This document shows, piece after piece, positions 17,351 through 42,678 of a stretch of 43,388 bases of DNA. Below the pieces are notes generated by a model. That model did no database searches and was not told the DNA's origin. It worked only from the letters and a program-made list of their open reading frames with translations. This DNA comes from a virus: positions 1-43,388 of the IMG/VR virus record IMGVR_UViG_3300035698_010081; one strand, given 5' to 3'. The position numbers and the translations under genes are program-made. The first letter of the stretch is position 1. Every line of letters begins with the position of its first letter.

Positions 17351-17836
17351 TTAGAATATATAACCGAAAACATCGATAGTTACTGTATAAGCAGCCCCAG
17401 TAGCCCCAGCTATCGGATAAACGCCGAAAGTCCTGTTATTTGCAGTAGCGTCGTCCCCGTCAATAACAGAGAACTCGTTGCTGATATGGTTTGTCCTCTC
17501 GAACACTTGGTAGTCATCAGTAGCCGTCATATCTGCAATTCCAGATTCAGCATCTATCCATGAACCGGTTGTTCCGGCACCAACACCAAAGTTTACATCA
17601 GTGCAACCGGTTAAAGATGCCGACGGGTTTCGTAAGATTATATATTCCACTATCCCATCCTTGCCGGACGGGACGGTATATAAATCTTGTTTCGCTGCGT
17701 TAGCATTTGTACCAATAGTTACAGACGTACTACTAAGTAATTGCATACCGCCAATTTTTTTCAGGTCAGCACCCATCACCCACACAGTGACAAGAAGCAA
17801 ACCAACTACCCATTGTTTTGAAATTTTCTTAAACAT
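17351..17836 (-). CDS. Exported small tail-associated beta protein
   Basis: A cleavable-looking signal (VVGLLLVTVWVMGA) is followed by a beta sandwich of a type found in phage tail regions: QDLYTVPSGKDGIVEYIILR, NPSASLTGCTDVNFG, ATDDYQVF and the closing YTVTIDVFGYIF. Such small proteins sit next to spikes and fibres and may be tail tip or decoration proteins. It follows the spike gene by 11 bases with a good AAGGAG site. The signal peptide is unexpected for a virion protein. Confidence 0.65.
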   Translation of the reverse strand: MFKKISKQWVVGLLLVTVWVMGADLKKIGGMQLLSSTSVTIGTNANAAKQDLYTVPSGKDGIVEYIILRNPSASLTGCTDVNFGVGAGTTGSWIDAESGIADMTATDDYQVFERTNHISNEFSVIDGDDATANNRTFGVYPIAGATGAAYTVTIDVFGYIF

Positions 17837-17847
17837 CTTTTTACTCC

Positions 17848-19749
17848 TTAATAAGTTACAACTTCATTTTCATAAGTTACTACTTCGCCTTCATAGCATA
17901 CTATTGTTTCGGGGAGTGATGAAGTTAATCGCCAAACAGAAGCAGTTGTTCCGCCTGTTTCACAAACCCACTTAGTTATATCTCCATAAGTAGTTGAAAT
18001 ATCATCGGAACTACCTATTAACCTTGTTCCGAGTGAAGTATCAAAACGTATTGCTGCTTTTGATATAACAGTAATTTCCTGACCACCAACGCCATTATCA
18101 AATCGCAAAATCAAACCGTCTGTCGTGGTGGTAAACCACATATTACCATTAGACACATTAGGTGATTGACCTGCTTGGAAAGTATGAAAATCGTTTGCAA
18201 TCATACCATTATATCGGCCTTGGTCTAATTCTACAAAAATATTACCAACACCGCTGTCAATAATATCGCCATTGCTAATATCAAAATCTCCAACCAAACG
18301 ATTGAATCTGCTGGCTGCACCCAATGTTACCGTGTCTCCTGTCGCACCAGACCAGTCCCAAACCCTTATAGCATTGAAATTATTACGTTTAATTTCAGTT
18401 GCAACCAGTCCATCATCAGTTACTGCGCTTTTTGCTTGCATTACTAAACTTGTAAACACGTTACTTTCCAATGCACCATCAGTCGTTTTGTTGTCCATTG
18501 TCAATAAAGTTGTGCCATTAAAAAGATACACTGCTTCAAAAGTATTGCTATTGATAAAAGCTGAACCACCGCTGGCCTCATTAACAGACATGACCATAGT
18601 TTTTTCATACCCTTCAATGATAATGGTTCCGAACGAAGAAGTTGTTACATAGAAACTTCCACCTGCGGTATCTGTAGCATCGAGTAGTAATCCAATACTA
18701 CCAGCAGTAACATCAGAAGTATTCCTGTTATTAGCCATGATATGAACTTCGTCTAATACCATTGTTTGACGGTTCACCTTGCCCGTTACATTTAAGGCTG
18801 TAGTATCATAACCAGCAGGTGTTATGATTTTAAGTTTATGAATCTTACCAGTAATTTCAAATTCGGATGTATGGGTAACTGTTATAGTCTGGTCAGCGGC
18901 AAGTTTAAAAATTGTACTCTCTGGGTCTGAGCCTGTAAGAACGCAGTTATCTATCGTTATACTATTCATAGCGTATGAACCAACTGGAACGAACACTTTT
19001 GCGCCATTTGCGGCATCATTTGCAGCTTGCAAGGCAGTAGCATTATCAGCAGCAGAATTACCTGTACTCACCCCATAAGCCCTGGCATCTAAATATCCTA
19101 AAATCAGTAATGTTCTGGCCGTATTAACGTTTGTAGTTTCCGCCATACTGGTCCCGAAAGCAGAAAAAGCGACACTCCCCTCCGGTACAGCATTGATCGC
19201 CGTTACTCCACCCGTTGAAGTAAAGGCCGCCACTTTACTTGCCCTATCAATGGAACTGGGATATTCCAGATCGAGTGCCGTTGTCGGATCACCTTTCGGG
19301 ACCTTTACACAAAAGCCCATGTTCTTATCGATATCCTGAATTGCCATCGTCTGTTTATCGAATGTTCTCTCGGTACTCTCTGCCGGCAGTGCCTGTCCCT
19401 GGATAAGGTTCACCTCCTGCGTTCGTAACGTGTTCCTGTGCAGGATAAGCGTATTACCTGATGCGTAAGTTTCGGTTGTAGTAAGTGTTCCGCCGCTGGA
19501 AAAGTCGTTATTCGTTGCGGATAGTGTATATCCAACGTTCAGGATCAACGATGTATCAACACCGGTCGAATCATTCCGGACTATTACAGCTAATTCCGTC
19601 TGATCTGTGAGTCTCATATCGAAATTAAACGTCGTTGACGACCCGTTAGCCGCAAACCTTTCAGGTACCGCCGTTCCGCTAACCGTTCCAAAAACAGGTT
19701 GACAACCCAATAAACCCAATAATATTATACTGATAAGTAACTTTTTCAT
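17848..19749 (-). CDS. Tail spike with beta-helix domain and lipoprotein signal
   Basis: After a lipoprotein-type signal MKKLLISIILLGLLGCQ (lipobox LLGC, Cys16), residues 25-155 resemble the tail-binding domain of T7-like fibres: VPERFAANGSSTTFNFDM, YTLSATNNDF, LILHRNTLRTQEVNL, RTFDKQTMAIQDID. A pectate-lyase-type beta helix starts near residue 220 (DARAYGVSTGNSAADNATAL, VFVPVGSYAMNSI). The protein should bind or degrade host surface polysaccharide. The final residues repeat GEVVTYENEVVTY. A lipid anchor on a tail spike is odd: it could tether the spike to the outer membrane before assembly. Confidence 0.8.
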   Translation of the reverse strand: MKKLLISIILLGLLGCQPVFGTVSGTAVPERFAANGSSTTFNFDMRLTDQTELAVIVRNDSTGVDTSLILNVGYTLSATNNDFSSGGTLTTTETYASGNTLILHRNTLRTQEVNLIQGQALPAESTERTFDKQTMAIQDIDKNMGFCVKVPKGDPTTALDLEYPSSIDRASKVAAFTSTGGVTAINAVPEGSVAFSAFGTSMAETTNVNTARTLLILGYLDARAYGVSTGNSAADNATALQAANDAANGAKVFVPVGSYAMNSITIDNCVLTGSDPESTIFKLAADQTITVTHTSEFEITGKIHKLKIITPAGYDTTALNVTGKVNRQTMVLDEVHIMANNRNTSDVTAGSIGLLLDATDTAGGSFYVTTSSFGTIIIEGYEKTMVMSVNEASGGSAFINSNTFEAVYLFNGTTLLTMDNKTTDGALESNVFTSLVMQAKSAVTDDGLVATEIKRNNFNAIRVWDWSGATGDTVTLGAASRFNRLVGDFDISNGDIIDSGVGNIFVELDQGRYNGMIANDFHTFQAGQSPNVSNGNMWFTTTTDGLILRFDNGVGGQEITVISKAAIRFDTSLGTRLIGSSDDISTTYGDITKWVCETGGTTASVWRLTSSLPETIVCYEGEVVTYENEVVTY

Positions 19750-19777
19750 AATCTAAATCCTTTCTTGTATTAAAATT

Positions 19778-22700
19778 CTATTCTTTTTCGGCTATGCTCA
19801 GTAGATTTTCTACAACATCGACAAGCTGCTCAATCTTTTCCGGGTCGTCAGCTTGGGCAATCGCTTTTGATATTTTCCCGATCCTTGATTGCAAGCCATT
19901 CATTACAACGGATTTCGTACTTTCCGCCACGGTTGCACTATCGTCGTCAACTTTTGATTTTAGTTTCCTCCTGATTGTAGTAAAATTCGAGAGTCTTGTC
20001 GACAACTCTTCTGATACTTCCCAAATTCCTTTCGGTTCGATCTTGAAGTTGACCAGTATATCTCTGATTCTTTCAGACTCTTTGGCGGTGTGTGCAGAAC
20101 TCTGATAATTGGTCTGCTTGTTCTCGAGGAACTGCTCGGTATCGATAGGTAGATCATCCTGAAATTCCTCTCGTATATCCTGGTCCACTTTCGGGCTACT
20201 TATAATCCTTTCCACTTTTTTGTTATAAGCTGCTATTATGCCTCGCGGTTTGTGTCCCACTCTGACTTGTTCAAATACTCGAGCCCTTGCGGCGATCAAG
20301 TCAAACATTGAATTGAGAACTTGCGTCCTTCTTATATCGGCTTCCGAAAGTGTCGGTCGGGTGCCTGTTACTGCTTGTAAAAGTGCGACTGGAAAATTCA
20401 TTCCCTTATTAAGTCCTTGGCGTAGTACAGAGGTGGATATAGGTTCAATTTTTTCGAGTTCATACAAAGCGAGCGTTCGAAGTTTGCCTCTTAGTGAATC
20501 TGTTGGTTCAATTATCCTATCACCCTTCCAGTCATAAATATCGCTTCCAAGTACCATGGTTGCGAGATCATAAGTTATATTAGCGAAAGGAGCAGTCATA
20601 CCGCCAACTCGGCGGAGGATCTCTTTGCCAAGACTGACGGTGCCGTGTTGGGCCCAGCCAAGCAGGAGATTGTAATAGTCCTTATCGTAAGTCAGGGTGT
20701 CGATGAATACTTTGCGTCCTCTGTCGTCTGTCTTTCCGGTGTCGATCTTGAATAGATCCCTGACATCCTCAGCGTTTTTAGGCTTTTTCGGAGGCTTGCC
20801 GGTCAGTATCATTGTTCCAATTGACGCGGCTATGGCTTTCAGTAATAAAGAATTGACTACATTTCGCCTTGACCTGGCAGCGGAATAAGAATCCCCTATC
20901 CCCCACTGGGTTGCTCCTTTGGCAATAGTACGGTAGTTACCCTCGGCAAAGCCCGGAGCAAGGAATATGAATCTCAGTATTGATGTTGCGGTTGACGATC
21001 GACCAAACAGTTTTTCGTTCATCTCGCCATAGAAGTTCTGGCCCTCTTTGATAATCGCTATCTTTTCACCATCTGTCAACCCTCGACCAAGTTTGCGTTC
21101 CTGATCAGCAACAAAATCAAGGTATTTAGTATATTTCAGTTTTGGTATATAGCTGTTGAACATCCATTCAGTAAACATATTCACAATTCTCAATGGTAAT
21201 ATAGCTGTTTTCAGGGCGACCCCGGGCTTACCCAGTGCGGTAATAATTTCATTGAATAAATTTTGGGCCTGAGCCTCAATGCTAGTCCTGTGGCTTCCAC
21301 CTAATGCTATATAATCTTTATATTCAGCTGTCTTGAACACAGGATCATCTGTTCTGAATCCTGTAGTAAATCCCCTTAGTGCAGAAGCTGGATTCAAATA
21401 AGGTGTATCGGCTATAGCTTGGGAGGCCTCTACCGTCAAGTGGAAAGCTGAGCCGGCAAACTTGAATATCCGCAGGACGTTATTCATACCCCTCAGTGCC
21501 CGCAGTGGTAAGTATTGCGAGGTTTTATTTGCACTAATAAGTTTATTTATCATCATGGCCAGATTTTCATCTGCCCTGAGCCCGTCGAATACGGGCTCTG
21601 TCCCGATCTTGACCCACCCCTCCTGTGCTTTGATTGTAGTATCGATAAACTCGCCCTTACCAAACTTTAGGAGATCATCCCGCATCATCTGCATCCCCTC
21701 GAGTCTGCTTATAGCTGACCATTCGGATTTAAGGTTGGTTACAGGGTTATTTGATTTTAGTGTCAAACCATACTCTTTGGCGTCCGCTACAGTTGGCAAG
21801 CTCTTTTCCTTAAGGAACCGTTTCGTTGTCCTATAATATTGGTCGAGGAACTTATCGATCTTACCGGGCGACTGGTCATATATACCGTAAAAATAGTCCC
21901 GTACTTTGGTTATATCGCCCTCAGCTATCTCAACGAGTTTGTTGTAGTTGAAGTCCGCTATTTCCTGCAGGGCCGTCTGCAGTCCGGGTTCTTTCAAAGG
22001 CTCAGGCAGTTTAACGGAGGCCTCTTTCTGGAACTCTTTAGCGAATTCGCCCCTGGGCGTACCCCGGCTGAGCATGAAGTTTTTCAAGTCCTCTTTACTG
22101 AACTTATCAAAGAATTTTTCCAGTTCACCGAAGTTGGTATCGACAACATCGAGCACCTGCTCATTAAACTCAAGTGCCCGGACGTCTGGTAAACTAATAC
22201 CCCGTATAACGGTTGAATAGACATTGTCGCCGAGTTTTACTTGAGCCAATTTGGCCGGCTCGAATATTTCAATGATCATCTTTGGTACGCTCTTGGCGAT
22301 GTCCAGCATATTTTTCGCCGCCGATTTGGCTATGTCCGGTAGGCTCCTGCCTGTCTGTTCAAAGGTTTTCTGGCCGAGTAACTTGGTAACTTTCTCCTTT
22401 TCCGCGGCAGTTTTCTTGATCTCGACCTTATTCTTAGCGATCTCTTTCTCAAGGAATTCGGCAAAAGCTGGGTCACGAACCGTCTCAGGCTTACTGAGCA
22501 CCTCCTGTCGCCACTTCTCCAATGCTGCATTCTCTGCTATCAGCTGCTCCGTTCTACTCTCAGGCAGCGTCCTGGGTTCACCCTTGGCCGCTGCAGGGGC
22601 CCTCTGTGGTTTCTTGCCGCCCGGCACGGGCTCAATCCCGAACCTGGCCGAAGTGAATCGGGACTTGACCTTATCCATCACATCCTGAGAAACCGGGGCC

Positions 22701-25700
22701 TTGCCCGACATTATATCTCTGGCCAGTTTTATCACGTCTTTCGGCAGGTCTGACCGGAATTTCGGGTAAGTCTCAATCAGGGCCATCTCTTCGGCAAAAT
22801 CTTCATCTATGTTTTGCCCGGATCGTTGGGGCCTGTCAGCGTGCCAGCTTCGTATTGCTTCAAAACTGTCTGGAGCTGTTTCTCCGATAATGTCGAAGAC
22901 AGGGTGGTATATTTCTTCGGCAAGTGTCCCTGCCTGGCCAGTGCCCTCACTAAAGACCTCGTGCGTGAGTCGCCCGCTATCCCTATCGAAGAATGTTCGC
23001 CCGACGATTTGGATGTTCTCGTTTTTGTGGTCATCGTACCAGTCCTTTCCTTTATCTGCTATTATGACATCTTTCGTTGGTTTTGCCGGGAACTTCCCCG
23101 GTGATATGGCAATAGCCGTATTTTCACCTACATAGGAGGCTTTGCTGTGCTTCTCTATTAGAGAGGAAGTCTCCTGTGTAGCGTTAGTATCACCAAGTGT
23201 GATAATTTTTGGTGTCAGGTCAATTTTTTTCAGCCTTGCCTTTTCTTCCGCGAATGTTCCCCACGCCGATTCTCTCGGCATGCTCCGCAGATCAAAACCT
23301 GAATAATCTTTACCAAACCGGTCAATAAGAGCCTTTTTACGTGCAGCCATAGCCTCTTCTTTTGTACCGAATCTCCCCAGGTTTGTTCTTTTGTCTGATT
23401 CCGGGAAGTTTACAAAAGCTTCCCATTTACTCCTTTCTTTGTTGAAACTTACACCCTTTTCCAGTAATTCAGGGTTAGCTTTCACCCTTAGAGCCTCCCG
23501 CTGCTCCCAGAGCCGCGTAGCCGCCTGGGTATGCATCTTAACAGCCTGATTCCAGAAAAACTCTGCAGTATCTTTTTTGACGCCGAGGCTTTTCTGGAAA
23601 CCCTCTAAGAAGTTCTCCCACACATATGCGAACGGATCCACGTTCAACCTTACAGCCTCCGCCTCTAACCGTTCGATTTCCGTGATCTGGTCGGTTGTCA
23701 GTGGTGAACCACCAATTTCTATCTTCTCGCCCTGGTAATCAAACGAAAACGCCTTTTGGTTTTTCAAGTACTCCAATACAGTATCTTCCGGAAGCTCAAA
23801 TATAACATCCTTATTGGGGCCCGTCGGTCTCTTACTGCCCGACAACGGCCACGCTGGTTTGACTCTGCGAATATCACCAACGCTCTCAGCCATTCTCCTG
23901 AACGACAATTCCGCATTCGTTCTTATCGGTAACGGCATACCTTTTGAAGTTTCAAGAATGGCCAGGACAGACGCTTCTTCGCCTTTAGGCCCGTTCATAA
24001 TTTCTGATAAAACTTTCACTCCAGGAGGCAATTTCTTTATTCCCCCTGCTTGTTTCCTCTCCTTTGCCAATTGCGTCCTCACAGCCCGCAGAGGGCTAAA
24101 CTTAGTACCCTTTGTCCCAATCATCAACATGCGAGCTGCATCTAAATCGCTTGCGCCGATATCTTTTTGAATATCCTTCACTATTTCAAGCCACTTTTTC
24201 CCCTCAGGTCTACTCAGTTTAGTTAATGTTTCATCGAATACCCTGGCAATGGCTTCACTTTGGGATATCTTAAATTCTTTGCTAAGATCAGCGGTCACCT
24301 TCGTAAATATCTTATCAGGCAATTCCAACCGATCAGTTTCAGTTATTTTGATTCGAGACAGATAGTCCTCAACAGAAGTAAGCGCTTCTTTTGTTTTGGC
24401 TGATCCCGTCTTTAATATATTACTCTTTTTGGTAGTTACCGACTCAATAGCAAATTTAGGCCCATGAACGGCCGCATGCTTACCAATCTCTCTCACTGCC
24501 TTACCTGCCAACCGTTTACTCGGCTCCGTTGGTCCTATCTCAGCGAACGCCGCCCGGAATCCCTGCGGTACGATCGCTCCCGACCTACCAGCCGTCTGTT
24601 CACTGGTGAATCTTATCGCATCTTTTGCCAGGGCGACCATGAAAGATTTGTGATTACTGTCCCATGTAGCTTGCGTCATATTACCAACCTGTACCTGTAC
24701 ACTGTCATTGACAGCAGTTCTCAGGCTATTTATCTTGGTCTCGTCGAGCGTTTTCAAATATCCCTCGAGCTTCGGGCTGCGTTTTATTAAAGCTTTTCGG
24801 ATAAGCTCCGTTTTTACACTATCTATCTTCGTGCTAATCTTCGACCCTATAGCACTCAGGCCTGACAGAGCCAGACTGAATACGGCCCCGGCAATTGCGC
24901 CGGTTCCGGTGGAAATCGTTACACTCCCAACTCTTTCATTAAAAGTCTCACCTTCCTTTGGCGCTTGAAGTAGATTTATCAGGCCGGATTTCGTTCCAAT
25001 TCCTATGGCGGACTTAGCGGCCTTCGACAGACCAGTAAAAGCTTTAACTTTTGACACGTCGGGTAATAGTGTGAATTTTATTATATCAGCCAGAATGCTA
25101 CCGCTGCTTAACCCGATCTGTGTCAGAAGCCGAGGATCTTCTCTGGCGATCTGTTCACGTACACGTGCAACCGCCGCAAGCACATTTGCAACTTCACCTT
25201 TTTCAACACCATAAAACTTATCGAACAGGTCAACACCTTTCCGATGGGCGAATCCTGTTGAACCTAATGTTATACTATCGAAGAATCCGGTACCGCCGAC
25301 GATGAGGAACGGCTTCTCAGCTATCTCCGCCAGGGCCTTGGGCATTATCTCTCTTATCCGAACTTCATCGTTAATCGCCCTGACAACATTATCCGGTAAA
25401 GCTATCGGGTTCTGTTTAACGTACTCGGCCAGAAAATCAACATCCTCCTGGGCGGCATACTTTATTATATCAGCCGTCTTGGGATCCAGGGCATCGGCGG
25501 GTGGCTCTGTGGGATCGGCGGGGCCGGTCGGGAAAGTAAGCATGTCCTGCAGGGGATCTTCTGAAATCTCTTTAGGAACCTTAATATTCAGGTGGCCTTT
25601 TATAAGATCGGACTGTATTTTCTTCTGCAGCTGTATGAGATCGACGGTCGTCGGGACCTTTTCTCCTCCCTCAATACCAAGTTCGGTCAGTACTTCAGGC

Positions 25701-26104
25701 GGCAGGAACTGTCCCTCGTCCCGCCACCAGAACTTCAATGCTACCTGCTGGGCGACCTCATCAACAGGCGGGGGCCACAACGGCGACACCTCGGCCAGTG
25801 GATTAAGAACCCTGCCAAATCGTTTCTTGACCTCATCAACCCGTTCCGGTGTCCACTGGAAGTCCCGTTCTACATCGAATACCGACCTGCCCGTCTCCGC
25901 CGCGATCTTAAGTGTCTCTTCCGCCCGCTTGCCCGCCTCTACCGGGTTAGTAAGGACCTCGGCAAATGTGTCTGTCGGCGGCAACTGCTGCTGGGCGATG
26001 TTAGGGTCTGGGATAAAGAATTCGTCCAGTGCTTCATCAGGAATGAAGCTATCATCCAGCTCGGCCGGATCCTTATTCGGTTTTGTTTTTACTACCTTCG
26101 GCAT
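19778..26104 (-). CDS. Giant internal virion (ejection) protein, gp16-like position
   Basis: At 2108 aa this is the largest gene and holds the slot of T7 gp16, after gp13/14/15-like genes. Seen by eye: a Pro-rich acidic start; an alanine/glycine-rich amphipathic stretch near 400-430; an AP2-like segment near 880-935 (GVSFNKERSKWEAF, LGRFGTKEEAMAARKKAL); a zincin-like region near 1060-1110 where HExxH reads EEIYH; coiled coils near 1180-1250; a region near 1740-1790 with IAASIGTMILTG like large polyvalent phage proteins; and a helical end. It probably helps carry DNA across the envelope. No clear transglycosylase motif was seen. It overlaps the gp15-like gene by 32 bases. Confidence 0.75.
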   Translation of the reverse strand: MPKVVKTKPNKDPAELDDSFIPDEALDEFFIPDPNIAQQQLPPTDTFAEVLTNPVEAGKRAEETLKIAAETGRSVFDVERDFQWTPERVDEVKKRFGRVLNPLAEVSPLWPPPVDEVAQQVALKFWWRDEGQFLPPEVLTELGIEGGEKVPTTVDLIQLQKKIQSDLIKGHLNIKVPKEISEDPLQDMLTFPTGPADPTEPPADALDPKTADIIKYAAQEDVDFLAEYVKQNPIALPDNVVRAINDEVRIREIMPKALAEIAEKPFLIVGGTGFFDSITLGSTGFAHRKGVDLFDKFYGVEKGEVANVLAAVARVREQIAREDPRLLTQIGLSSGSILADIIKFTLLPDVSKVKAFTGLSKAAKSAIGIGTKSGLINLLQAPKEGETFNERVGSVTISTGTGAIAGAVFSLALSGLSAIGSKISTKIDSVKTELIRKALIKRSPKLEGYLKTLDETKINSLRTAVNDSVQVQVGNMTQATWDSNHKSFMVALAKDAIRFTSEQTAGRSGAIVPQGFRAAFAEIGPTEPSKRLAGKAVREIGKHAAVHGPKFAIESVTTKKSNILKTGSAKTKEALTSVEDYLSRIKITETDRLELPDKIFTKVTADLSKEFKISQSEAIARVFDETLTKLSRPEGKKWLEIVKDIQKDIGASDLDAARMLMIGTKGTKFSPLRAVRTQLAKERKQAGGIKKLPPGVKVLSEIMNGPKGEEASVLAILETSKGMPLPIRTNAELSFRRMAESVGDIRRVKPAWPLSGSKRPTGPNKDVIFELPEDTVLEYLKNQKAFSFDYQGEKIEIGGSPLTTDQITEIERLEAEAVRLNVDPFAYVWENFLEGFQKSLGVKKDTAEFFWNQAVKMHTQAATRLWEQREALRVKANPELLEKGVSFNKERSKWEAFVNFPESDKRTNLGRFGTKEEAMAARKKALIDRFGKDYSGFDLRSMPRESAWGTFAEEKARLKKIDLTPKIITLGDTNATQETSSLIEKHSKASYVGENTAIAISPGKFPAKPTKDVIIADKGKDWYDDHKNENIQIVGRTFFDRDSGRLTHEVFSEGTGQAGTLAEEIYHPVFDIIGETAPDSFEAIRSWHADRPQRSGQNIDEDFAEEMALIETYPKFRSDLPKDVIKLARDIMSGKAPVSQDVMDKVKSRFTSARFGIEPVPGGKKPQRAPAAAKGEPRTLPESRTEQLIAENAALEKWRQEVLSKPETVRDPAFAEFLEKEIAKNKVEIKKTAAEKEKVTKLLGQKTFEQTGRSLPDIAKSAAKNMLDIAKSVPKMIIEIFEPAKLAQVKLGDNVYSTVIRGISLPDVRALEFNEQVLDVVDTNFGELEKFFDKFSKEDLKNFMLSRGTPRGEFAKEFQKEASVKLPEPLKEPGLQTALQEIADFNYNKLVEIAEGDITKVRDYFYGIYDQSPGKIDKFLDQYYRTTKRFLKEKSLPTVADAKEYGLTLKSNNPVTNLKSEWSAISRLEGMQMMRDDLLKFGKGEFIDTTIKAQEGWVKIGTEPVFDGLRADENLAMMINKLISANKTSQYLPLRALRGMNNVLRIFKFAGSAFHLTVEASQAIADTPYLNPASALRGFTTGFRTDDPVFKTAEYKDYIALGGSHRTSIEAQAQNLFNEIITALGKPGVALKTAILPLRIVNMFTEWMFNSYIPKLKYTKYLDFVADQERKLGRGLTDGEKIAIIKEGQNFYGEMNEKLFGRSSTATSILRFIFLAPGFAEGNYRTIAKGATQWGIGDSYSAARSRRNVVNSLLLKAIAASIGTMILTGKPPKKPKNAEDVRDLFKIDTGKTDDRGRKVFIDTLTYDKDYYNLLLGWAQHGTVSLGKEILRRVGGMTAPFANITYDLATMVLGSDIYDWKGDRIIEPTDSLRGKLRTLALYELEKIEPISTSVLRQGLNKGMNFPVALLQAVTGTRPTLSEADIRRTQVLNSMFDLIAARARVFEQVRVGHKPRGIIAAYNKKVERIISSPKVDQDIREEFQDDLPIDTEQFLENKQTNYQSSAHTAKESERIRDILVNFKIEPKGIWEVSEELSTRLSNFTTIRRKLKSKVDDDSATVAESTKSVVMNGLQSRIGKISKAIAQADDPEKIEQLVDVVENLLSIAEKE

Positions 26105-27830: not shown

Positions 27831-27854
27831 AATCTCACCTTTTATTATTTAATT

Positions 27855-28439
27855 TTAAGCCGCATCAAATCGCGACGCTAACTGTCCCACGCCCGTCAAT
27901 AGTGTAGTTCCCGTCCTGAAACGACCGGCTCTTCTTATATTCTTACCTCTTTGAATTTCCTGCCGGGCCCTGGTCTCCAGTCCGAATCCTCGCTGTCGTC
28001 CCGCCTGACCGGCGAGTAGTCTTTCTTCCTCGAATACCCCTGCGATTTCCTCGGCTTGTAATAGTGGGGTCCCCGCCATATCGATTCCGGCATTGGCGGC
28101 CAATACTCTCAACCTCGACGATCTGCGTTTCTTATCCTCTTTTATCCCTTTCTGCTCTTCTTTGGCTACGAGTTCTTCCTGAGCCGCCTGGGCTCTGAGG
28201 TTCGCTGCGTTCTGCTTAGCCGCGTCCTGGGCCGCCTGGTCGGAAGCCTGCCCCGCCCCCAGTGCCATTCCGGTACCGACGATACCTGCCACCGAGGATA
28301 TAGCGGTTCCAAGTGAGAAAGCGCCAGCAGTACCAAACAGACCTCCTGTAGCTGCTGTTGCCGCTACTGCCGGAGCTGTTGCCGTTGCCGCTACTGCCGG
28401 TACCGCCGCCGCTCCAAATAATAAAAAAGGCATTATCAA
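27855..28439 (-). CDS. Internal virion protein, gp14-like
   Basis: The 194-aa product has an Ala/Gly-rich hydrophobic first half (LFGTAGAFSLGTAISSVAGI, VGTGMALGAGQASDQAAQ) followed by a coiled coil and a basic helix with VLAANAGIDMAGTPLLQAEE. This is the pattern of gp14-like proteins that insert in the outer membrane during ejection. The ATG overlaps the upstream gene stop (ATGA). The hydrophobic part is an amphipathic pore-former type, not a signal peptide. Confidence 0.75.
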   Translation of the reverse strand: MIMPFLLFGAAAVPAVAATATAPAVAATAATGGLFGTAGAFSLGTAISSVAGIVGTGMALGAGQASDQAAQDAAKQNAANLRAQAAQEELVAKEEQKGIKEDKKRRSSRLRVLAANAGIDMAGTPLLQAEEIAGVFEEERLLAGQAGRQRGFGLETRARQEIQRGKNIRRAGRFRTGTTLLTGVGQLASRFDAA

Positions 28440-28951: not shown

Positions 28952-28972
28952 TTACAATCTTTCTGCTTTTAA

Positions 28973-31588: not shown

Positions 31589-31591
31589 TTT

Positions 31592-32227
31592 TCACCTTCC
31601 AGTCAGCCATGTACTTTCACCTTCATCGTTTCCACCTTCCATATCACCCTCAGCCTGGTTACGTCCTATTGCCTCCGGCAGGACCCGCAATCTCAATTCT
31701 CTCTGCATACCCTGAATATGCAGTTGGCTCTCTTCAGATATCCCCATAAGTTTAGGAGCCATTGCCAGCGCCAATTTTAATGCGATATACTCGATCAGCC
31801 CGGGCGAATACTTTGATACATCACCAACGCTTATATAATCTATATAAGCCGAAACTCCGTCGTCATTGGAATAGTTATTGGTAAAGAGTTGCCGCCCTTT
31901 TATTATATGAGCGTATTTCTTCGTATGATCACCCTCATCTATCTGAGCAATCACCTGCAGGCAATCGTCCGGCAGGTTGAAGACATACTCCCAGTCCGCC
32001 TGTTCAGCTACAGTTACCTCCCCACCCAGGTCAGCAAATTTCGTTAGTCCACTCCACTCTGCTCTCGCCAGGCAAGTACTCGTAATCACCGGCAGCAGTT
32101 TGCGGCAGAGTTGAGCATTGTCGGAGATATCACTATCGGCGAGAGTGTCTATCAGATCCGCACCATCCTGGATTAACGCTAAATTACATATATCCGTTGC
32201 CGTCTGAAATTCTGTCATTTTAGCCAT
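31592..32227 (-). CDS. Tail adaptor (gp11-like tubular protein A)
   Basis: The 211-aa protein follows the adaptor pattern: ATDICNLALIQDGADLIDTL near the start, CRKLLPVITSTCLARAEWSG, then WEYVFNLPDDCLQVIAQID and the long helix SPGLIEYIALKLALAMAP. Twelve copies would bind below the portal and hold nozzle and fibres. It has no signal peptide, in contrast to the nozzle encoded 3 bases downstream. Its stop lies inside the ribosome site of the nozzle gene. Confidence 0.85.
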   Translation of the reverse strand: MAKMTEFQTATDICNLALIQDGADLIDTLADSDISDNAQLCRKLLPVITSTCLARAEWSGLTKFADLGGEVTVAEQADWEYVFNLPDDCLQVIAQIDEGDHTKKYAHIIKGRQLFTNNYSNDDGVSAYIDYISVGDVSKYSPGLIEYIALKLALAMAPKLMGISEESQLHIQGMQRELRLRVLPEAIGRNQAEGDMEGGNDEGESTWLTGR

Positions 32228-32236
32228 TGTCTTTCC

Positions 32237-34399
32237 TCAGTTTTTATATTCCATTAAACCCATTGTGCAGGTAAATATATTAGCTGCATCAGCAGTTCCC
32301 CATTGAGCAGTTACGGTTATATCTAATGCACCGGTAGTGTCTATCGTTTCAACGGCACAGGAATCAGTTGAATTATCACCTTCTATAGTCATATCCACGT
32401 GCCAAGCCATACTTCCTGAACCTCCAACGCTTCGCACAGTAGCAAAACCCTTAATATGCCAGCAAGCATTTGTAAACTTAGCGGCTGTTGAAAGAATAGT
32501 AGCTACTTCATCCAAGCCAACATAAACTCTCATCGTAATAGTATGACCGGCAGCCCCAACCTTGTTGGTTAAATCCCCTGCCATAAACATCTTTAAGAAA
32601 TTACCTGCAACCCAAGAGCCAGCAGGAACTGATGCCGAATACACTTCTGTTTCAGTTGTTCCTTGTGCCCCGGCATCTCCGTCAACAGTAGTGGTAGTCA
32701 GTTTTACATCGCTTGTTCTGTCGAGAGCCTTACGAACAGATTTATTTGTCATATAAAGTCTGTTATCGTGAAATTCCAATGCTCCTGTTTCTGGAGTCGT
32801 CAAGGCTGTGCCATCAGTAAATTTAAGTGGCGCACGACCAACGCCAATAGCACCAGCAGGAAGGACTACGTTGCCTGTCGCCGATATTCGAGTATCATTT
32901 GTGCCGTCGCCGATATTAGTAGCTGGCAAATCAAGAACGCCTTTGCCTATTTCAATTACCCCGTTTGTCTGATTGTGTGTAAAGCTAATCCATTCGTCTG
33001 TCGCTTGATTATCTGAATGGACAAACAAGGTCGGATTAAGCTGAGCAGGATGAGCAAAGTTGAAAGCGACATCCAAATCACCACAAATAATCATACTTCT
33101 TGAATGGGTACTATCAGCGTCATCATTTAAGCCAATTACAAAAGTTTCAGGGACTTGGTGGTTTTCCCATTGTAAGGTTGCAAATCTATCAGGGTTATCT
33201 CCAAATCTCACTTCTCTATTATCAGAAAATACTAAATTTCCAAGAGAAGTAAGTTTTAATCTTGTAGACCAATTTGCTCCGTCATCAGCACTTGTTCTCC
33301 ATTGATACTCGCCTCCACCATTACCGACTCTCCAATCGGTATAAGCATTACCTGTTCTCATAAAATCTAAGTATGCGTTAGTATGATTGGTAGATGTAAG
33401 CGTTGCTACAGTTTCGCCACCGGTTGTAACTTCAAAGGCACCTTCTATTGTTGCATCTCCCCCTACGGAAAGGTCGCCAGTGCATGATATGTCTACAGCA
33501 TCCGTTAATGAACCGCCCGTCAAAGTGGCAACTCCGTCTGTCAGGCTTGTTACTGTCGTCGCATTAAAACTTGCAGTTGCCGCCCCTACCTGCGATATTC
33601 CTCCAGCCGGGGAAAACGCTGTATAATTAATTGTTCCAGCGCCAACTCTTAAACTGGAATCTGCAAATAATACGCCGTTCGTCCCATCAGAATAGAGAAT
33701 TAAATCGCCCCCTGCACCAAAAGTTAATCGAGTGCTGTCTGGAATCGAAATAAGGTCAGGTGTTCCTTCCGTTAATGTAAGAACGTCCTCTATGCTTGTC
33801 CCTAACTTGAAAACAATACTCTTAGCGTCATGATTGTTTATAATATACAAATCGTCATCATGATTCAAAAACTCATGAGCAAGAGGACCTGTTGTAGCAT
33901 CAATAAATAATGAACCAAAATAACCGTACCCCTCAACATCAAGATTCGCAGCGCTAAGTTTGCCTGCTGTAAGAGTAATACTATTGGCAGCTATTACCCA
34001 ATCGCCCGTCAGGTCGCGTGTACCGTCGGCTAATAGATATATTGTATGATCGTCATCTGATAAGCCGGACAATCCGCCGTGATCTCTAAATGTCTGTGCC
34101 TGCCAGCCAGGCAGCCCCGCTGTTATCCCCAGTATATCGTTATTATCTCCTATCGGCAGGTCGCGCCAGTCGCCGTTGGTCAAAGCGTAGATTATATCAC
34201 CTTTAACCGCCGTCGCCGGAGTTGTATCTCCGTGAGTAACGGAAAGGAGGTTATGTTTTAGCGTCGCCATCGAGCCTGGCCGATAATATTTACGGTTATC
34301 GTTGGGATATATATCCCTGTCAAAGCCGAGTACCTGACTCGAGGCGCAAACCAATATCAAAGTACATATCAGTTTTTTTATTTTACTTTGCGAAACCAT
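32237..34399 (-). CDS. Exported tail fibre protein (720 aa)
   Basis: I start at 34399 (MVSQSKIKKLICTLILVC, AGGAG just upstream), giving a signal peptide ending near QVLG. The rest is a fibre: repeated short beta motifs (LTFGAGGDLILYSDGTNGVL, GDLSVGGDATIEGAFEV), an RFGDNPDRFATLQW part, a knob linker HDNRLYMTNKSVRKALDRTS and a C-terminal beta domain (EVYSASVPAGSWVAGNFLKM). Such fibres bind host receptors. It overlaps the end of the preceding small exported protein gene by 17 bases and precedes the adaptor. It is likely a trimer; no chaperone gene was seen. Confidence 0.75.
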   Translation of the reverse strand: MVSQSKIKKLICTLILVCASSQVLGFDRDIYPNDNRKYYRPGSMATLKHNLLSVTHGDTTPATAVKGDIIYALTNGDWRDLPIGDNNDILGITAGLPGWQAQTFRDHGGLSGLSDDDHTIYLLADGTRDLTGDWVIAANSITLTAGKLSAANLDVEGYGYFGSLFIDATTGPLAHEFLNHDDDLYIINNHDAKSIVFKLGTSIEDVLTLTEGTPDLISIPDSTRLTFGAGGDLILYSDGTNGVLFADSSLRVGAGTINYTAFSPAGGISQVGAATASFNATTVTSLTDGVATLTGGSLTDAVDISCTGDLSVGGDATIEGAFEVTTGGETVATLTSTNHTNAYLDFMRTGNAYTDWRVGNGGGEYQWRTSADDGANWSTRLKLTSLGNLVFSDNREVRFGDNPDRFATLQWENHQVPETFVIGLNDDADSTHSRSMIICGDLDVAFNFAHPAQLNPTLFVHSDNQATDEWISFTHNQTNGVIEIGKGVLDLPATNIGDGTNDTRISATGNVVLPAGAIGVGRAPLKFTDGTALTTPETGALEFHDNRLYMTNKSVRKALDRTSDVKLTTTTVDGDAGAQGTTETEVYSASVPAGSWVAGNFLKMFMAGDLTNKVGAAGHTITMRVYVGLDEVATILSTAAKFTNACWHIKGFATVRSVGGSGSMAWHVDMTIEGDNSTDSCAVETIDTTGALDITVTAQWGTADAANIFTCTMGLMEYKN

Positions 34400-34961
34400 A
34401 ACTCCTGACCTGGATAATGACATTTGTTATACCCGTAAACGTTTCCGGCTCGAAGTACAGCCATTGGAGACCTGCCATATCGATCTTGAGTTTACAAATA
34501 GTATTACTCGCACTATCAGCTACTTCAACGGTTTCGGTATGCTTATCGGTCCCTGATATAGTATCGGCATATAATCCAGAACCGGGCGCCACAGCCGTAC
34601 CTAAGGTAAAGGTCGTCGCCTCATATATCCGCATCGCCGGGCCATCTTTTCCGTAGCCGTAGATATTTATCTTCGCACTATCGCCGTCCGTATCACTGCC
34701 CGTCGAGTACAGGTGCACCTCTACCCAGTCGGCACGGTCATCGATATGTACTGAATACGTCGATACTCTGTCAGATGCCATATAAGTACGGCTGGTTGAG
34801 GTTCCATCCAGGATAGTAGCATCGACCGCACTTATCGTAAGCGTCTGATCCTCTACGATCCACGTTGCGGCCCTCGCCTCCGGCGGGTATGTCGGCCAGC
34901 AGATGAACAAAAATGCCGTTATTAATATTCCTGCCAAAGCAATAGATTTTAATGTTTTCAT
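34383..34961 (-). CDS. Exported small protein of the tail block (192 aa)
   Basis: The start at 34961 follows GAAAGGAAAG. A long signal (SIALAGILITAFLFICWPTY) ends near EARA. The mature part is beta-rich, with EDQTLTISAVDATILDGTST, WVEVHLYSTGSDTDGDSAKI and a closing VIIQVRSYGFAK. It may be a tail or capsid decoration protein, or a fibre-associated protein. No family recognised. It lies between the LamG-like and fibre genes. Confidence 0.6.
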   Translation of the reverse strand: MKTLKSIALAGILITAFLFICWPTYPPEARAATWIVEDQTLTISAVDATILDGTSTSRTYMASDRVSTYSVHIDDRADWVEVHLYSTGSDTDGDSAKINIYGYGKDGPAMRIYEATTFTLGTAVAPGSGLYADTISGTDKHTETVEVADSASNTICKLKIDMAGLQWLYFEPETFTGITNVIIQVRSYGFAK

Positions 34962-34997
34962 AATACTTTCCTTTCTTTTCAAATTTAGCATTATTTT

Positions 34998-35798
34998 TTA
35001 CCGTTCACGCCCGCGAGTTCTTTGTCGCAGAGTATTAACACTGACACTAACTGATTCAGTACCGGTACCGTTATTATAGAGACTGGTAATTTGGGCTTGC
35101 GTAAGCTCGGTATCGTAGATAACTACATTGTCAATAACGCCTTTTGCTACACTTGCGCCGTCGATACCCATAGCCAAATCTTCGTTAGAATCATCGACAT
35201 TAACAAAAGTACCGTTAATATCATTACTGTCATCAACTTTGTCGGCGTCAAGATACAATTTAACACCACTGGACAATGAACCACCGTCATAGGTACCTGC
35301 AACAAAGATAAAGCCGGCACCTTCGTAAAGAGCATAATCCGTCGTGGAATCGTATCTACCAATTTTAGCCTGAGCCGCACTTTCATCATATAGAGTAAGG
35401 TACAGGTTATCGCCACCAACATTAAAGCTCCATTCAAGAGCTGTACCTTTCTTATTGATTATCATAAAGTCAAGAGCACCCTCGTCAGCCGACAGGCTTA
35501 CCCATGCAGTGATACTCAAAGGCGTACCATCCGGTGTGAAAGCAGCGGCGTCGCCAACGGTGATATAGTCATTCGTACCGTCAAGTTCGAAAGCTCCGTT
35601 TATATGACCGGTAGTATTATGGTCGCTCGTAACAGCGGCGGCACCATTCTCATCTACGAATGTTCCTGTATAACTACCGACCGAATCAGCTACAACAGCA
35701 TCGTTAGCATCTTCGTTCATCTTCCATTGTGCGATTGCAGCGGCGAAACAATTTCCGGACAGAAACAATATCAACATCACAATCAGAATACGTTTCAT
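34998..35798 (-). CDS. Exported LamG/concanavalin-like protein
   Basis: A signal peptide (MKRILIVMLILFLSGNCFA) precedes a LamG-like jellyroll: AIAQWKMNEDANDAVVADSV, GAFELDGTNDYITVGDAAAF, SITAWVSLSADEGALDFMI, AGTYDGGSLSSGVKLYLDAD, IDNVVIYDTELTQAQITSLY and a Ser-rich tail ending RTRGRER. These domains bind carbohydrate or protein surfaces. In a phage it may decorate the virion for glycan adhesion. It follows a terminator and may be expressed less than the head genes. Confidence 0.8.
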   Translation of the reverse strand: MKRILIVMLILFLSGNCFAAAIAQWKMNEDANDAVVADSVGSYTGTFVDENGAAAVTSDHNTTGHINGAFELDGTNDYITVGDAAAFTPDGTPLSITAWVSLSADEGALDFMIINKKGTALEWSFNVGGDNLYLTLYDESAAQAKIGRYDSTTDYALYEGAGFIFVAGTYDGGSLSSGVKLYLDADKVDDSNDINGTFVNVDDSNEDLAMGIDGASVAKGVIDNVVIYDTELTQAQITSLYNNGTGTESVSVSVNTLRQRTRGRER

Positions 35799-35810
35799 CT
35801 CTTATCCCTT

Positions 35811-35846
35811 AAGAAAAGACCCGGGCGGCGGTAAACCGCCCAGGTC
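35811..35846 (-). terminator. Rho-independent terminator after the beta-helix gene
   Basis: On the minus strand GACCTGGGCGG and CCGCCCGGGTC form an 11-base stem (one G-U) around TTTACCG, followed by TTTTCTT. It lies 9 bases after the beta-helix gene stop and separates capsid genes from the tail block. Confidence 0.8.
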
Positions 35847-35854
35847 GTTAAACT

Positions 35855-38800
35855 TTAGTCAGTATCAACAGCAGGGGTAATCACACCGCTTGCACCGTGA
35901 GTACCTGAAATATAGTTCTCAAAGCACCATATAGCCGTATCTCCTGTTAAACCGTTTAGCATTGTTTCGCCAGTACCAAGATAGTTGTCGCAAAAAATCC
36001 CTGTAGTTGCCGCATTGAGCAGAACAGAGGCAATCGCAGTCTCGGTGATAAATACGTTATCCTCGATGAGTATATTAACAGAAGCAGCGTCATCGGCCTT
36101 TAGAACCGCCGTCGCATACGTTCCGTTAACACGATTACCTTTAATAACACCGTTGTCCATACCGCCTACCAGTTCGATACCGATAGTACACTGGCCGGTT
36201 ACAACGGTCGTTAGCCTGTTATTCAAAAGTCGAACGGCATCGGCGTCGGCAGCAACCTGGATACCAACCAGCAGTTCTTCGCCAGCAGCACCATCGCTCA
36301 AAACGCAACCTTCAATAACCGAACCATCACTGGCATTGCTCATAACAATACCAATTTTGCAATCGGCAATATCAGACTCGATACGGATGCCCTGTAATCG
36401 GCAGTTTGCCGCTGTTATAGATACTTCCGCGTCAACATGGTCTAAGACAAATACCGGCATCTGGCTGTCTGTGCCTGCTACATCACCGGTAGTGATAACG
36501 CCGGAAGGTGTTCCGTTGGAAATTCCGATCACCGAGACACCTTCGACATCCATAGTAAATATGGGGCCGGTGGCTGCTTCTTTTTCATGATGACCTTGAG
36601 CGACATAGATCGTATCGCCACGGTCGGCTACACAGTCGTCCATAGCGGCATCGACGGTATTGAACGCGGTATCCCACGTCCCACCGCCACCGGCGGTAGC
36701 ACCGGAATCGACATAAATGACCCGTCCTGTACCATGAACAGAGTCAATCTTCTGTCTCTGGGCGGGGAACAGGTATCCATTTTCGTTGATCTCATGGCTG
36801 ACATAGTTGTTAAAGCATTTCAGTGAACCTGGGTCGATTATCACACCCCAGGTATCGCCATAGCATCTGTTGTCGGATAATTCACCTGTAGCGGCAGAAG
36901 AAAATACTATCGCACCTACACCAGTCTCGGTGTTTTGAACACTGTTATTGCGAACTATTACGCCGGTATCGGCATCGTCAGAGCTAATCGCTCCTACCGA
37001 CCATACGCCTCTAAATTCGCAATCTTCGACAATCATACCATCAGTAATGCCTGCAATATTCGTAATAGCAGCGGTTGCATTATCTCCGCCGACATTATCA
37101 AACTTACATCTGGTAATCCTGACATCATCACAATCACTTGCCACCGTAATCGAACTAAGAAACTCAATGCCAGCCTGGTCGCCTCTGAACTCACAGTCCT
37201 CAAACACAGTTCCGTCAGAGGAAGCATTCAAAGTTACGGCTGCCGTAGGATCAACAGTTATAGCACGGAATATGCAGTTTTTGTACATCACATCGGAAAC
37301 GGTATGAGCTAAACATTCGTCAGCCGAAGTGTATATAAACTGCGGGCGTGATTCGCCTACGCCCAAACCCCATATCGTTATACCGGCATTGTCAACAGCT
37401 TGCGAAGCGACAAAAGTTTCCAGGTGGTTCGCAGCTACAAAAATAATCGCACCGGTATCAGTAGTACAGTGGTCTATACCTTTTTTCAAGGTACTGTCGG
37501 CCTCTGCCCAGGATTGACCGGTATTACTGGCACCACCACCAGTTGCATCAACGTAGAAGATGTTCTCAGCCGTACCATCTCTGCCAAGAGCAGCCAGAAT
37601 GTCGTCAGATTTGTCCTGTAGCCATTCCAGTCGTTCAAGGTTAGAACCATCAGCAACTCCGGTAACATCCGTTGTTTCAGCACTAATTGGTACAGGTATG
37701 CCCTGCTGGTCGTGATCGTCAGCTCCAATATTGCCTGAACAAAACAATTCACCTGGGTCAAGCATTGTGGCGTAATCGTTTGAGTAAAACCTGTTGTCGG
37801 TCAACACGCCCGTTGCAGCGCCAGTGCCGTAGATACAATACTTAGCCGCGGTTGTATTGCTTATTATGTTGTCTGTGATAGCCAGGTTGAGCGGAATAGC
37901 AGCCGCCCAATAAATTGCACCATTCGCAAACTCACCGAAAAGAGTACACCCGGTTATCGTAGTATTCTGGATAGCCGCTTCGGAAAGGTCCACGAAACAG
38001 GATGTGTGAGCAGTAGTAGCGTTGGTATTGTAATATGTGCAATCCTTGACGGTCAGCTTGTCAGCTGCGGCGTCAACATCAATACAAATCACAAATTCAT
38101 CGTCAGCTGCTACGCCGATAATAAATGAGACATTCTCAATCGTACAGCCGATACCGGCATCTTCTACCCGAATAGCGGAAGTCTCTGCGGTCGCACTGGG
38201 TTGCATCCGAAAGTTTTTCATGGTAATACCGGCGGCATCAAGAGTAAAATCATCAGCGGAAGCATCTGCGATAAATACCGGACGGGCATCGCCTTCGCCC
38301 ATACCTATCCACGAAATATTAGCTACATCGAAGTCCGTACCGCCCGTATTGATACTCTCACTATGACCATCGGCGATATAGACAACATCACCGGCAGTAG
38401 TAACAGCAGCTTCGGCAGCGTGTATTGTCAGATAAGCATTTTCCCACGTCAGACCAGTAGCGTCACCTGCCGCTCCACTATCGACATAGTGAATCGTTCC
38501 GGCACTACCCAACGCAGTCGGCATATCGAGTTCCAAATCTTCGGTACGCCTGACCATAACAGCGTCGCCATCAGTCAATGCCACTGAAAAGTTTTCCGAT
38601 ACGGTAAACGTGCCGGTGTTTGAGACATAATTGATAATATCTATTATCTCACCTTCAGGGGCAGTACCGGCGGAGGTATCGCGTAATATACAAATCATGG
38701 ACCATCCGGTATTGAAATAATCATTATCGAAACCAGCTAACAGGGGAACAACAGCGGTAGTCTGGCTGGAATTGGTCGTACAAGTCCCTACATAACCGCT

Positions 38801-40198
38801 ATCGTTCATTGCGACTATCGCAGCGATAAGACTGGTCACATCGGTTTGCAGTAAATCAACGTCGGATTTTACACTATCGTCATCGTTTGCACCCAAATCA
38901 CCGGTATACGCACCAATTATATCATGCTGCATCTCTAAAGAGTCGGTGGTGTAATCATACGTATCCACTGCAAGAGTTTTTGACATTAAAAAATTAAAGA
39001 CAGATTCAGCGACTATCGAATCAGGATAAGCCAAAGATGCACTACGGTCATCATTGGATGTTAACTCATCCAAACCATAAGTCTCAAAATCTTCGATAAT
39101 CGCAGCGGTATCGGTCTTAATAAGGGTGGTTGCAGCTTTGACATTATCGTCGATAGCGGCACCGCTTACAGGGCCGGTATACGCGCCCAGCATGGACTCG
39201 AAGTTTCTTGTAACCGCAGCCGTAGCTTCGGTCTGCATGAAAACATTGTCAGGCGATACGAACATCGCAGCACCGACAAAAGCAAACGTCGCTCCGTTAC
39301 CGTAACATTTATTACCAACTACATTGCCGGTAGATAAAGCTGAAAAACTCATCAACTTACCGGTTCCGGTATCGAGGTTGTTGATTGTGTTGTTCTCAAT
39401 GAGCATACTCAATGAAGTAGCACCGTTCTTGATAACGTAATCAGACCAGTCGCCGTAGAAGTAGTTGTCCGCAATAACCGATTGACTTGAAGCGCCTGCA
39501 AGATTGATAGCAACCGTATCAGAGCCGCCGGCTACACCGATAAATCTGTTACCGGCGATAACCAACTCGTCAGCGGCAGCAGCGGCATTAATCATTATCA
39601 GCATCTCGTAAGTGTCAGAAGTTTCCCTGAACTCACAGCCGATAATCCGCGTACCATCACCGTCGCCGTCGATAACTATACCGGCAGTCAAACCGCCCTC
39701 GTAATTACTCAAAAACCGAATGTTGTAAATCGTTACGTCAGCAGCACTAATCGTCAGTTCTGCGGTGGCGTTAGTTATAAACGAAATTTCCGGCATGTCC
39801 TCACCTTCGCCAAAGCCGTAAATAGTGATACCGGCTTTATTGGCAATAAGAGCGGAGGCGTGAGTAACAGTCTCGGCATGTCCCTGAGCAACGTAAATAA
39901 TATCACCGTTGTTATTCGCACACAGGGCGATAGCCTCTTTCAAAGTATCGACAGCCGTAGCCCATGACGTTCCGGCAGTCGCTCCGGATATAGCGGAGTC
40001 CAGATAAAACTTCGAACCCGTCCCTATCTCGTCGCTTTCGAGAGCTTCGTAATCCACCAGGTGAAGATAAAAGGGATCGAACTGTGTATTTTTCATCCCT
40101 ATATAATCACCACCAGCCAGGTATTCTTCTTTTGTTAAAGCCTGTACCTGTATCACCTGGACCATTAACAGGAACAAAATAATAAATATTTTCTTCAT
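35855..40198 (-). CDS. Exported four-module beta-helix protein (1447 aa)
   Basis: A signal peptide (IFIILFLLMVQVIQVQA) is followed by four related modules starting near residues 61, 569, 879 and 1159. Each opens with FYLDS/IHYVD/IFYVD/VIYVD, then a Trp-containing TSWATA or TWENA turn and GDIIYVAQGHAET. The first three continue with a GITIYGFGEGE-type turn, and right-handed parallel beta-helix rungs (Asn/Cys-rich IEDC, VIGCEF) follow. Between modules 1 and 2 lies an unrelated segment of about 230 residues. It could be a long appendage or capsid-associated polysaccharide binder. It sits between the cement protein and a strong terminator. No catalytic residues could be assigned. Confidence 0.75.
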   Translation of the reverse strand: MKKIFIILFLLMVQVIQVQALTKEEYLAGGDYIGMKNTQFDPFYLHLVDYEALESDEIGTGSKFYLDSAISGATAGTSWATAVDTLKEAIALCANNNGDIIYVAQGHAETVTHASALIANKAGITIYGFGEGEDMPEISFITNATAELTISAADVTIYNIRFLSNYEGGLTAGIVIDGDGDGTRIIGCEFRETSDTYEMLIMINAAAAADELVIAGNRFIGVAGGSDTVAINLAGASSQSVIADNYFYGDWSDYVIKNGATSLSMLIENNTINNLDTGTGKLMSFSALSTGNVVGNKCYGNGATFAFVGAAMFVSPDNVFMQTEATAAVTRNFESMLGAYTGPVSGAAIDDNVKAATTLIKTDTAAIIEDFETYGLDELTSNDDRSASLAYPDSIVAESVFNFLMSKTLAVDTYDYTTDSLEMQHDIIGAYTGDLGANDDDSVKSDVDLLQTDVTSLIAAIVAMNDSGYVGTCTTNSSQTTAVVPLLAGFDNDYFNTGWSMICILRDTSAGTAPEGEIIDIINYVSNTGTFTVSENFSVALTDGDAVMVRRTEDLELDMPTALGSAGTIHYVDSGAAGDATGLTWENAYLTIHAAEAAVTTAGDVVYIADGHSESINTGGTDFDVANISWIGMGEGDARPVFIADASADDFTLDAAGITMKNFRMQPSATAETSAIRVEDAGIGCTIENVSFIIGVAADDEFVICIDVDAAADKLTVKDCTYYNTNATTAHTSCFVDLSEAAIQNTTITGCTLFGEFANGAIYWAAAIPLNLAITDNIISNTTAAKYCIYGTGAATGVLTDNRFYSNDYATMLDPGELFCSGNIGADDHDQQGIPVPISAETTDVTGVADGSNLERLEWLQDKSDDILAALGRDGTAENIFYVDATGGGASNTGQSWAEADSTLKKGIDHCTTDTGAIIFVAANHLETFVASQAVDNAGITIWGLGVGESRPQFIYTSADECLAHTVSDVMYKNCIFRAITVDPTAAVTLNASSDGTVFEDCEFRGDQAGIEFLSSITVASDCDDVRITRCKFDNVGGDNATAAITNIAGITDGMIVEDCEFRGVWSVGAISSDDADTGVIVRNNSVQNTETGVGAIVFSSAATGELSDNRCYGDTWGVIIDPGSLKCFNNYVSHEINENGYLFPAQRQKIDSVHGTGRVIYVDSGATAGGGGTWDTAFNTVDAAMDDCVADRGDTIYVAQGHHEKEAATGPIFTMDVEGVSVIGISNGTPSGVITTGDVAGTDSQMPVFVLDHVDAEVSITAANCRLQGIRIESDIADCKIGIVMSNASDGSVIEGCVLSDGAAGEELLVGIQVAADADAVRLLNNRLTTVVTGQCTIGIELVGGMDNGVIKGNRVNGTYATAVLKADDAASVNILIEDNVFITETAIASVLLNAATTGIFCDNYLGTGETMLNGLTGDTAIWCFENYISGTHGASGVITPAVDTD

Positions 40199-40735: not shown

Positions 40736-40805
40736 AATATTCACTCCTTAAAAGGATTAACTATTTAACTGATTAACTTTTCAAAAACTCAAACTCAAAA
40801 TTCAA

Positions 40806-42601: not shown

Positions 42602-42678
42602 TACCCATTCTCCGTCGCTCTTTCTTCCATTTTCTTATACCGTAGTGCTCCGCCGGTCTTTTGACCCTTCTGAGCTGA
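42417..42678. repeat. Short duplication at scaffold gene end
   Basis: TTCTCCGTCGCTCTTT occurs at 42417-42432 and 42608-42623, and ACCCTTCTGAGCTGA at 42435-42449 and 42664-42678. Both pairs keep their order but with different spacing, which suggests a partial duplication of the scaffold 3' end with a later insertion or deletion. Confidence 0.5.

Follow-up and report, generated by a model that had tools for sequence, protein, structure and literature searches.

The closest described systems are podoviruses with a phrog_376 nozzle and a GP7-type capsid, namely Salmonella phage epsilon15, phiV10 and the Pelagibacter HTVC phages; together with PDB 8CK1, they have the same families of capsid, portal, adaptor, nozzle and internal proteins, in the same order, as the DNA studied here. 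Assembly of tailed phages is regarded as entirely cytoplasmic and, to our knowledge, none is finished outside the cytoplasm. Virion proteins with cleavable Sec signals are found in the filamentous phages, whose pIII and pVIII assemble at the membrane or beyond the cytoplasm; these ssDNA phages lack capsid, portal and terminase and leave the cell by extrusion, with no lysis. The likeness to the proteins described below is a functional analogy only: the window (i.e. the whole stretch of 43,388 nucleotides that was analysed) has a capsid, a portal and a terminase-like gene and would build its heads on the tailed-phage plan, and membrane assembly of the filamentous type was rejected for that reason.

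The known use of host Sec by tailed phages for a late protein is that of the signal-peptide and SAR endolysins (PMC6116005); those are lysis enzymes, whereas the signals reported here are on structural proteins. For bacterial diversity-generating retroelements, the surface-displayed, ligand-binding proteins carry signals, and absence of a signal has been taken as support for a phage origin (PMC6199706), a rule of thumb that the signal-bearing phage proteins described here break. Our search of the open-access literature turned up no podovirus described as having signals on its tail proteins, in line with an initial sequence-only reading of this DNA, which knew of no podovirus with such an arrangement. 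As a sequence trait, the signals represent a new podovirus variant.

The window and the signals on its external proteins

The window is a podovirus genome with every structural gene on the minus strand. An overlap between its ends was looked for and not found; the portal and scaffold genes lie at opposite ends, as would be expected of one circle cut open. Profile searches revealed the families GP7 (PF20911), phrog_332, phrog_394, phrog_376, phrog_418 and phrog_13893/1640. The capsid is of the GP7 type (PF20911, E=1e-67; phrog_212 also matches) and the nozzle, adaptor, portal and internal virion protein families occur in order (phrog_376, 394, 332, 418), which places the window, by capsid as well as by gene families and their order, among the phrog_376/GP7 podoviruses with an epsilon15-like virion plan. 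The head and inner-virion genes are:

42601..43359, minus strand: scaffold-like protein (weak phrog_3742 and phrog_458 matches), no signal
40806..41801, minus strand: major capsid protein (GP7, PF20911), no signal
40277..40744, minus strand: cement-like protein (weak phrog_427 match), no signal
31592..32227, minus strand: adaptor (phrog_394), no signal
27855..28439, minus strand: internal virion protein, a small core protein (phrog_418)
26073..27830, minus strand: internal core protein, 585 aa, no signal
19778..26104, minus strand: large internal core protein, 2108 aa, no signal
993..2720, minus strand: portal (phrog_332), no signal

The N-terminus of the small core protein is hydrophobic and rich in Ala but has no basic n-region. 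The 2108-aa core protein has a 45.7% identical homologue in the related locus L153, and its residues 883-938 form an HNH/AP2 endonuclease-like segment. An odd chimera is encoded at 10933-11739 (minus strand), where a tyrosine-recombinase domain (Phage_integrase, E=7e-25) follows a serine-recombinase-type 'Recombinase' fragment, and suggests that the phage is temperate.

Signals were called with a rule-based scan for a basic n-region, an uncharged hydrophobic core and either a -3/-1 site or a lipobox. This simple rule set recovered 9 of 11 known E. coli signal peptides; its background, in 165 relatives without a nozzle signal, was 54 calls among 2273 genes (2.4%). The sequence-only reading had claimed export signals on seven external proteins, starting at 40198, 35798, 34961, 34399, 31588, 19749 and 17836, and all seven indeed have a Sec-type signal at a credible start codon. 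Six were called outright, and by the scan's rules they have the basic n-region, uncharged hydrophobic core and small -3/-1 residues typical of Sec and signal peptidase I substrates; for the small beta protein, the scan called the N-terminus hydrophobic and an EARA↓ATW site is evident just past the scanned range (arrows mark predicted cleavage). The seven genes are:

35855..40198, minus strand: beta-helix protein, 1447 aa, putative head/tail decoration; signal 40139-40198 (MKKIFIILFLLMVQVIQVQA↓LTK)
34998..35798, minus strand: LamG protein, 266 aa; signal about 35736-35798
34383..34961, minus strand: small beta protein, 192 aa from the ATG at 34961; signal 34869-34961 (...PPEARA↓ATW)
32237..34399, minus strand: putative fibre, 720 aa from the ATG at 34399; signal about 34325-34399 (...SSQVLG↓FDRD)
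28973..31588, minus strand: tail nozzle, 871 aa; signal 31517-31588 (MNKIVTKIFTILFIILFILGGATA↓FGL)
17848..19749, minus strand: spike with a podoviral N-terminal attachment domain, 633 aa; signal about 19687-19749 (MKKLLISIILLGLLGCQPVFG↓TVS)
17351..17836, minus strand: small tail protein, 161 aa; signal about 17771-17836

The LamG protein matches Pfam Laminin_G_3 (E=1e-14) and could be cleaved at CFA↓AAI or AAA↓IAQ. Judging from gene position, the beta-helix, LamG, small beta, fibre and small tail proteins are probably virion parts. No lytic (muralytic) domain was found in any of the seven by profile searches. As the sequence-only reading had also held for portal, capsid, cement, adaptor and core, the scan called no signal among the portal, scaffold, capsid, cement, adaptor and large core proteins; it called none on an acetyltransferase-like protein either. 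The window thus has signals on 7/7 external versus 0/9 internal proteins (Fisher p = 9e-5). Two more of its proteins have a hydrophobic N-terminal segment: a small membrane protein (17003-17323) and a 265-aa protein (13120-13917, minus strand), Gly/Ala-rich at its N-terminus, which weakly matches Destabilase (i-type lysozyme) and may be an exported endolysin of the signal-anchor type.

Placement of the nozzle and spike signals

Similarity of the window nozzle to phrog_376 (E=2e-204) begins at residue 33, and that to the solved Tail Nozzle PDB 8CK1 (E=2e-93) at residue 34; when the protein is aligned with four relatives, its extra N-terminal stretch ends where their Met stands. Among 231 loci of the same nozzle family, taken from viral contigs, bacterial genomes and phage records, an N-terminal signal extension is present in 17 (the window, L148, L149, L150-L154, L205, L206, L212, L217, L220, L059, L081, L089 and G506:C18) and absent in more than 200 relatives. 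Nearly all nozzles start 8-13 residues before an invariant F..GE motif. The Met-to-Phe distance has a median of 10 in the 211 signal-less nozzles, and the predicted mature arm before the invariant Phe has a median of 9 residues in the signal-bearing ones. Relative to the surveyed nozzles, of which the signal-less start is a property rather than a formal criterion of the family, the window protein has a 24-residue signal in addition. The nozzles of Manatee Spring MW202898, Baldr and HTVC035P, unlike that of the window, start without a signal 10 residues before the conserved Phe.

Although the nozzle signals diverge in sequence, each has retained a basic n-region, a hydrophobic core free of charges and a -3/-1 site that permits cleavage (e.g. 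MKKILVFVLLLCSAVFA↓GNP in L220, MRHILIFLFLCCTAFA↓ENP in L059 and MVKRISYIVLCLFALVFLGAQA↓TPL in L205). Absence of signals from close homologues, which the sequence-only reading had named as evidence against itself, was not observed: they are present in L148 and L149 (59-75% nozzle identity) and in L150-L153 (44-47%). Two further candidates, L071 and L091, were excluded, as their real ATG is closer to the motif. Internal ATG or GTG starts that would give cytoplasmic nozzle copies are absent in 14 of the 17 signal-bearing nozzles, and dual localisation through such starts was rejected on this basis. In one signal-bearing clade (L059, L081, L089, L206, L212, L217 and L220) the nozzles reach 1027-1301 aa. 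The extra length includes LamG-like insertions in L059, L081 and L089, and the separate LamG protein of the window matches the L059 and L220 nozzles.

It is hardly credible that the signals are an artefact of wrong start codons or of over-prediction by simple rules. The starts at 34961 and 34399 are, admittedly, in-frame ATGs inside longer ORFs, and a few of the rule-based calls depend on weak cleavage motifs. But genes are tightly spaced, Shine-Dalgarno-like sites are good upstream of 40198, 31588, 19749 and 17836 (weaker at 35798), the one alternative start of the window nozzle is a TTG without a ribosome-binding-like site and, against the 2.4% background, calls concentrate in external genes across 17 phages.

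The spike presents a similar picture. Its tail-protein matches to phrog_13893 and phrog_1640 begin at residues 22 and 33. The attachment domain starts at residue 3 in 51 of 66 signal-less homologues and at 19-31 in the spikes of the window, L153, L151 and G506:C18, and in the alignment the Met-Thr of the signal-less proteins stands at the G↓T or A↓T cleavage sites of the signal-bearing ones. Because these sites coincide with the ancestral Met-Thr, signal peptidase I is favoured over a lipobox. The lipid-anchored spikes envisaged in the sequence-only reading are not supported: the LLGC lipobox of the window is weak, with Leu at -2 (versus [LVI][ASTVI][GAS]C), its Cys is missing from the related spikes of L153 and L266, and the alternative site, VFG↓TVSG, falls at the position where spikes without a signal begin with Met-Thr. 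As far as the alignments tell, nozzle and spike, two separate phage-specific families, have each gained a signal exactly at the ancestral start, and predicted cleavage restores the N-terminus of the signal-less relatives.

This last point bears on the view that the signals are uncleaved anchors, the precursors staying in the inner membrane, where tails would be assembled, or the peptide being kept in the particle for a membrane interaction during infection. The segments of the window nozzle, LamG and beta-helix proteins are indeed very hydrophobic (scores of 21-22 versus 11.6 for OmpA and DsbA), and cleavage motifs are only mediocre in some relatives. However, short cores are followed by permissible cleavage sites whose use would give back the ancestral end of nozzle and spike, and unrelated folds show the same design; we regard anchoring as rather improbable.

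Signals in related phages

The phages were grouped by nozzle signal, so that nozzle figures are descriptive, while those for spike, beta-helix protein and neighbouring genes are independent of the definition. Spikes had a signal in 3/4 cases in signal-bearing phages and in 0/58 in phages with a signal-less nozzle. Non-nozzle genes had one in 46/263 cases in signal-bearing phages versus 54/2273 in the other nozzle relatives. In the signal-bearing phages, genes between cement and nozzle had a signal in 30/40 cases, against 3/92 for capsid, cement, adaptor and core genes (p=8e-18, uncorrected for kinship); by position, the counts were 0/16 for adaptors, 0/14 for capsids, 2/14 for the gene next to the capsid (capsid+1) and 1/48 for core genes. 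The only core-protein relative with a clear signal peptide is a 224-aa protein of the intB type in L153 (10573-11247).

In the beta-helix family (an 11-member cluster), a signal is present in 7/7 relatives, across the three main signal-bearing clades; a distant homologue adjoining the capsid gene of MW202647 has none. Weak relatives of the small beta protein in L150 and L151 bear signals, as does a fibre homologue in L149. Scans of viral contigs with the window capsid and beta-helix proteins gave no relatives of these two. The division into external and internal proteins drawn in the sequence-only reading therefore holds by gene position, relatives keeping the signals as signals and not as sequence. 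The conservation of the signals, their sorting by position and their placement at the ancestral start are shown at the level of sequence, and the signals themselves are well supported.

The arrangement is conserved in relatives, but it is not all-or-none. In the nozzle tree the trait is patchy, with at least four changes on well-supported branches, and is found in three main clades and in single cases. Two complete circular relatives (127-base overlap), G506:C18 and its sister G516:C12, come from bins of one Planctomycetota class: the former has signals on nozzle and spike, the latter on decoration proteins only. The nozzle of L028 and two neighbours of the L081 nozzle also have no signal. Conversely, L107, L129, L156 and L169 have signals on fibre-like genes although their nozzles have none; L107 and L129 are in Thermodesulfobacteriota MAGs. 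L089 is located in a Planctomycetota MAG, and Planctomycetota are plausible hosts of the window's group. A trait of the whole phylum was rejected, as other prophage nozzles of Planctomycetota are without signals, and the signal habit is wider than one phylum.

Could the signals be functionless relics of bacterial surface-protein genes captured by phages? Exported LamG and beta-helix proteins are common in bacteria and external phage genes are frequently exchanged. But nozzle and spike attachment domain are phage families to which the signal was added, signal character has been retained despite sequence divergence, and the three main clades and the single cases all carry the trait; this very improbable explanation is already largely contradicted.

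Two other leads were followed. Disulfide-driven export was rejected: cysteine content is not clearly different between exported and other proteins (8.9 versus 7.3 per 1000 residues, without even-number bias) and does not differ between the two nozzle groups. Two small window proteins flanking the portal region (287-649 and 2724-2993, both minus strand) have a SEC-C motif (PF02810; E=3e-9 and 7e-9), which is the zinc motif of the SecA C-terminus. Such proteins also occur in the G506:C18, L149 and L220 records, are absent from the large signal-bearing records L081 and L206, and gave one weak match in 20 signal-less-nozzle records. With this patchy occurrence they were rejected as dedicated export helpers and kept as a lead, a link to Sec export being possible.

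A putative assembly in two compartments

Of the distinct assembly route suggested in the sequence-only reading, the lipid-anchored spikes are not supported; a step outside the cytoplasm stays the best reading that we infer. Our tentative proposal, which may well prove wrong, is that the external parts are exported by Sec and cleaved, then joined to cytoplasm-made heads after the inner membrane opens. The signal-less capsid, portal, adaptor and core proteins would form DNA-filled heads in the cytoplasm. The nozzle, the spike and probably the fibre, beta-helix, LamG and small beta proteins would be translocated across the inner membrane by cleavable Sec signals, trimmed by signal peptidase I to the N-termini of signal-less relatives, and folded in the periplasm. 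If nozzle and spike are exported unfolded, they would be kept from joining heads in the cytoplasm. When lysis opens the inner membrane, heads ending in the adaptor would encounter the mature nozzles, spikes and decorations, which would join them at the adaptor-nozzle junction (the proposed seam) and on the capsid surface. The adaptor would be the cytoplasmic side of the seam, which in G516:C12 would lie further out. The gain from export could be folding, modification or delayed fibre activity.

Late joining is possible in principle, since finished P22 heads accept tailspikes in vitro. A point against it is that a head without nozzle should, in known podoviruses, leak DNA, so that a temporary plug would be needed. 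Export of each part cannot be obligatory, as signals are missing from the nozzle and spike of G516:C12, the L028 nozzle and the two L081 neighbours.

The exported proteins might instead act outside the virion, coating or remodelling the host surface (superinfection exclusion, adhesion, polysaccharide cutting), with virions built from an unexported fraction. In its favour, LamG and beta-helix are folds well suited to binding surfaces, membership of the virion is putative for the beta-helix, LamG, small beta and fibre proteins, and in G516:C12 the signals are on decoration proteins, not on nozzle or spike. Nevertheless, no nozzle function is known other than in the virion, most of the 17 signal-bearing nozzles have no internal start for a cytoplasmic form and, as is generally known, very hydrophobic signals favour co-translational export, which would leave little behind. 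We consider this explanation fairly unlikely.

Under the proposal of Sec export followed by late joining, there would quite possibly exist a two-compartment virion, with heads from the cytoplasm and hub, spikes and decorations from the periplasm, recurring in several podovirus branches, with phages binned with Planctomycetota among them. A Sec signal conserved on the very hub of the tail would mean that the tail is attached outside the cytoplasm, and two-compartment assembly, if shown, would be new in kind. It would provide a new way to time assembly with lysis and possibly allow receptor-binding proteins to be folded or modified in the periplasm. Signals on tail genes would also offer a sequence marker for finding such phages.
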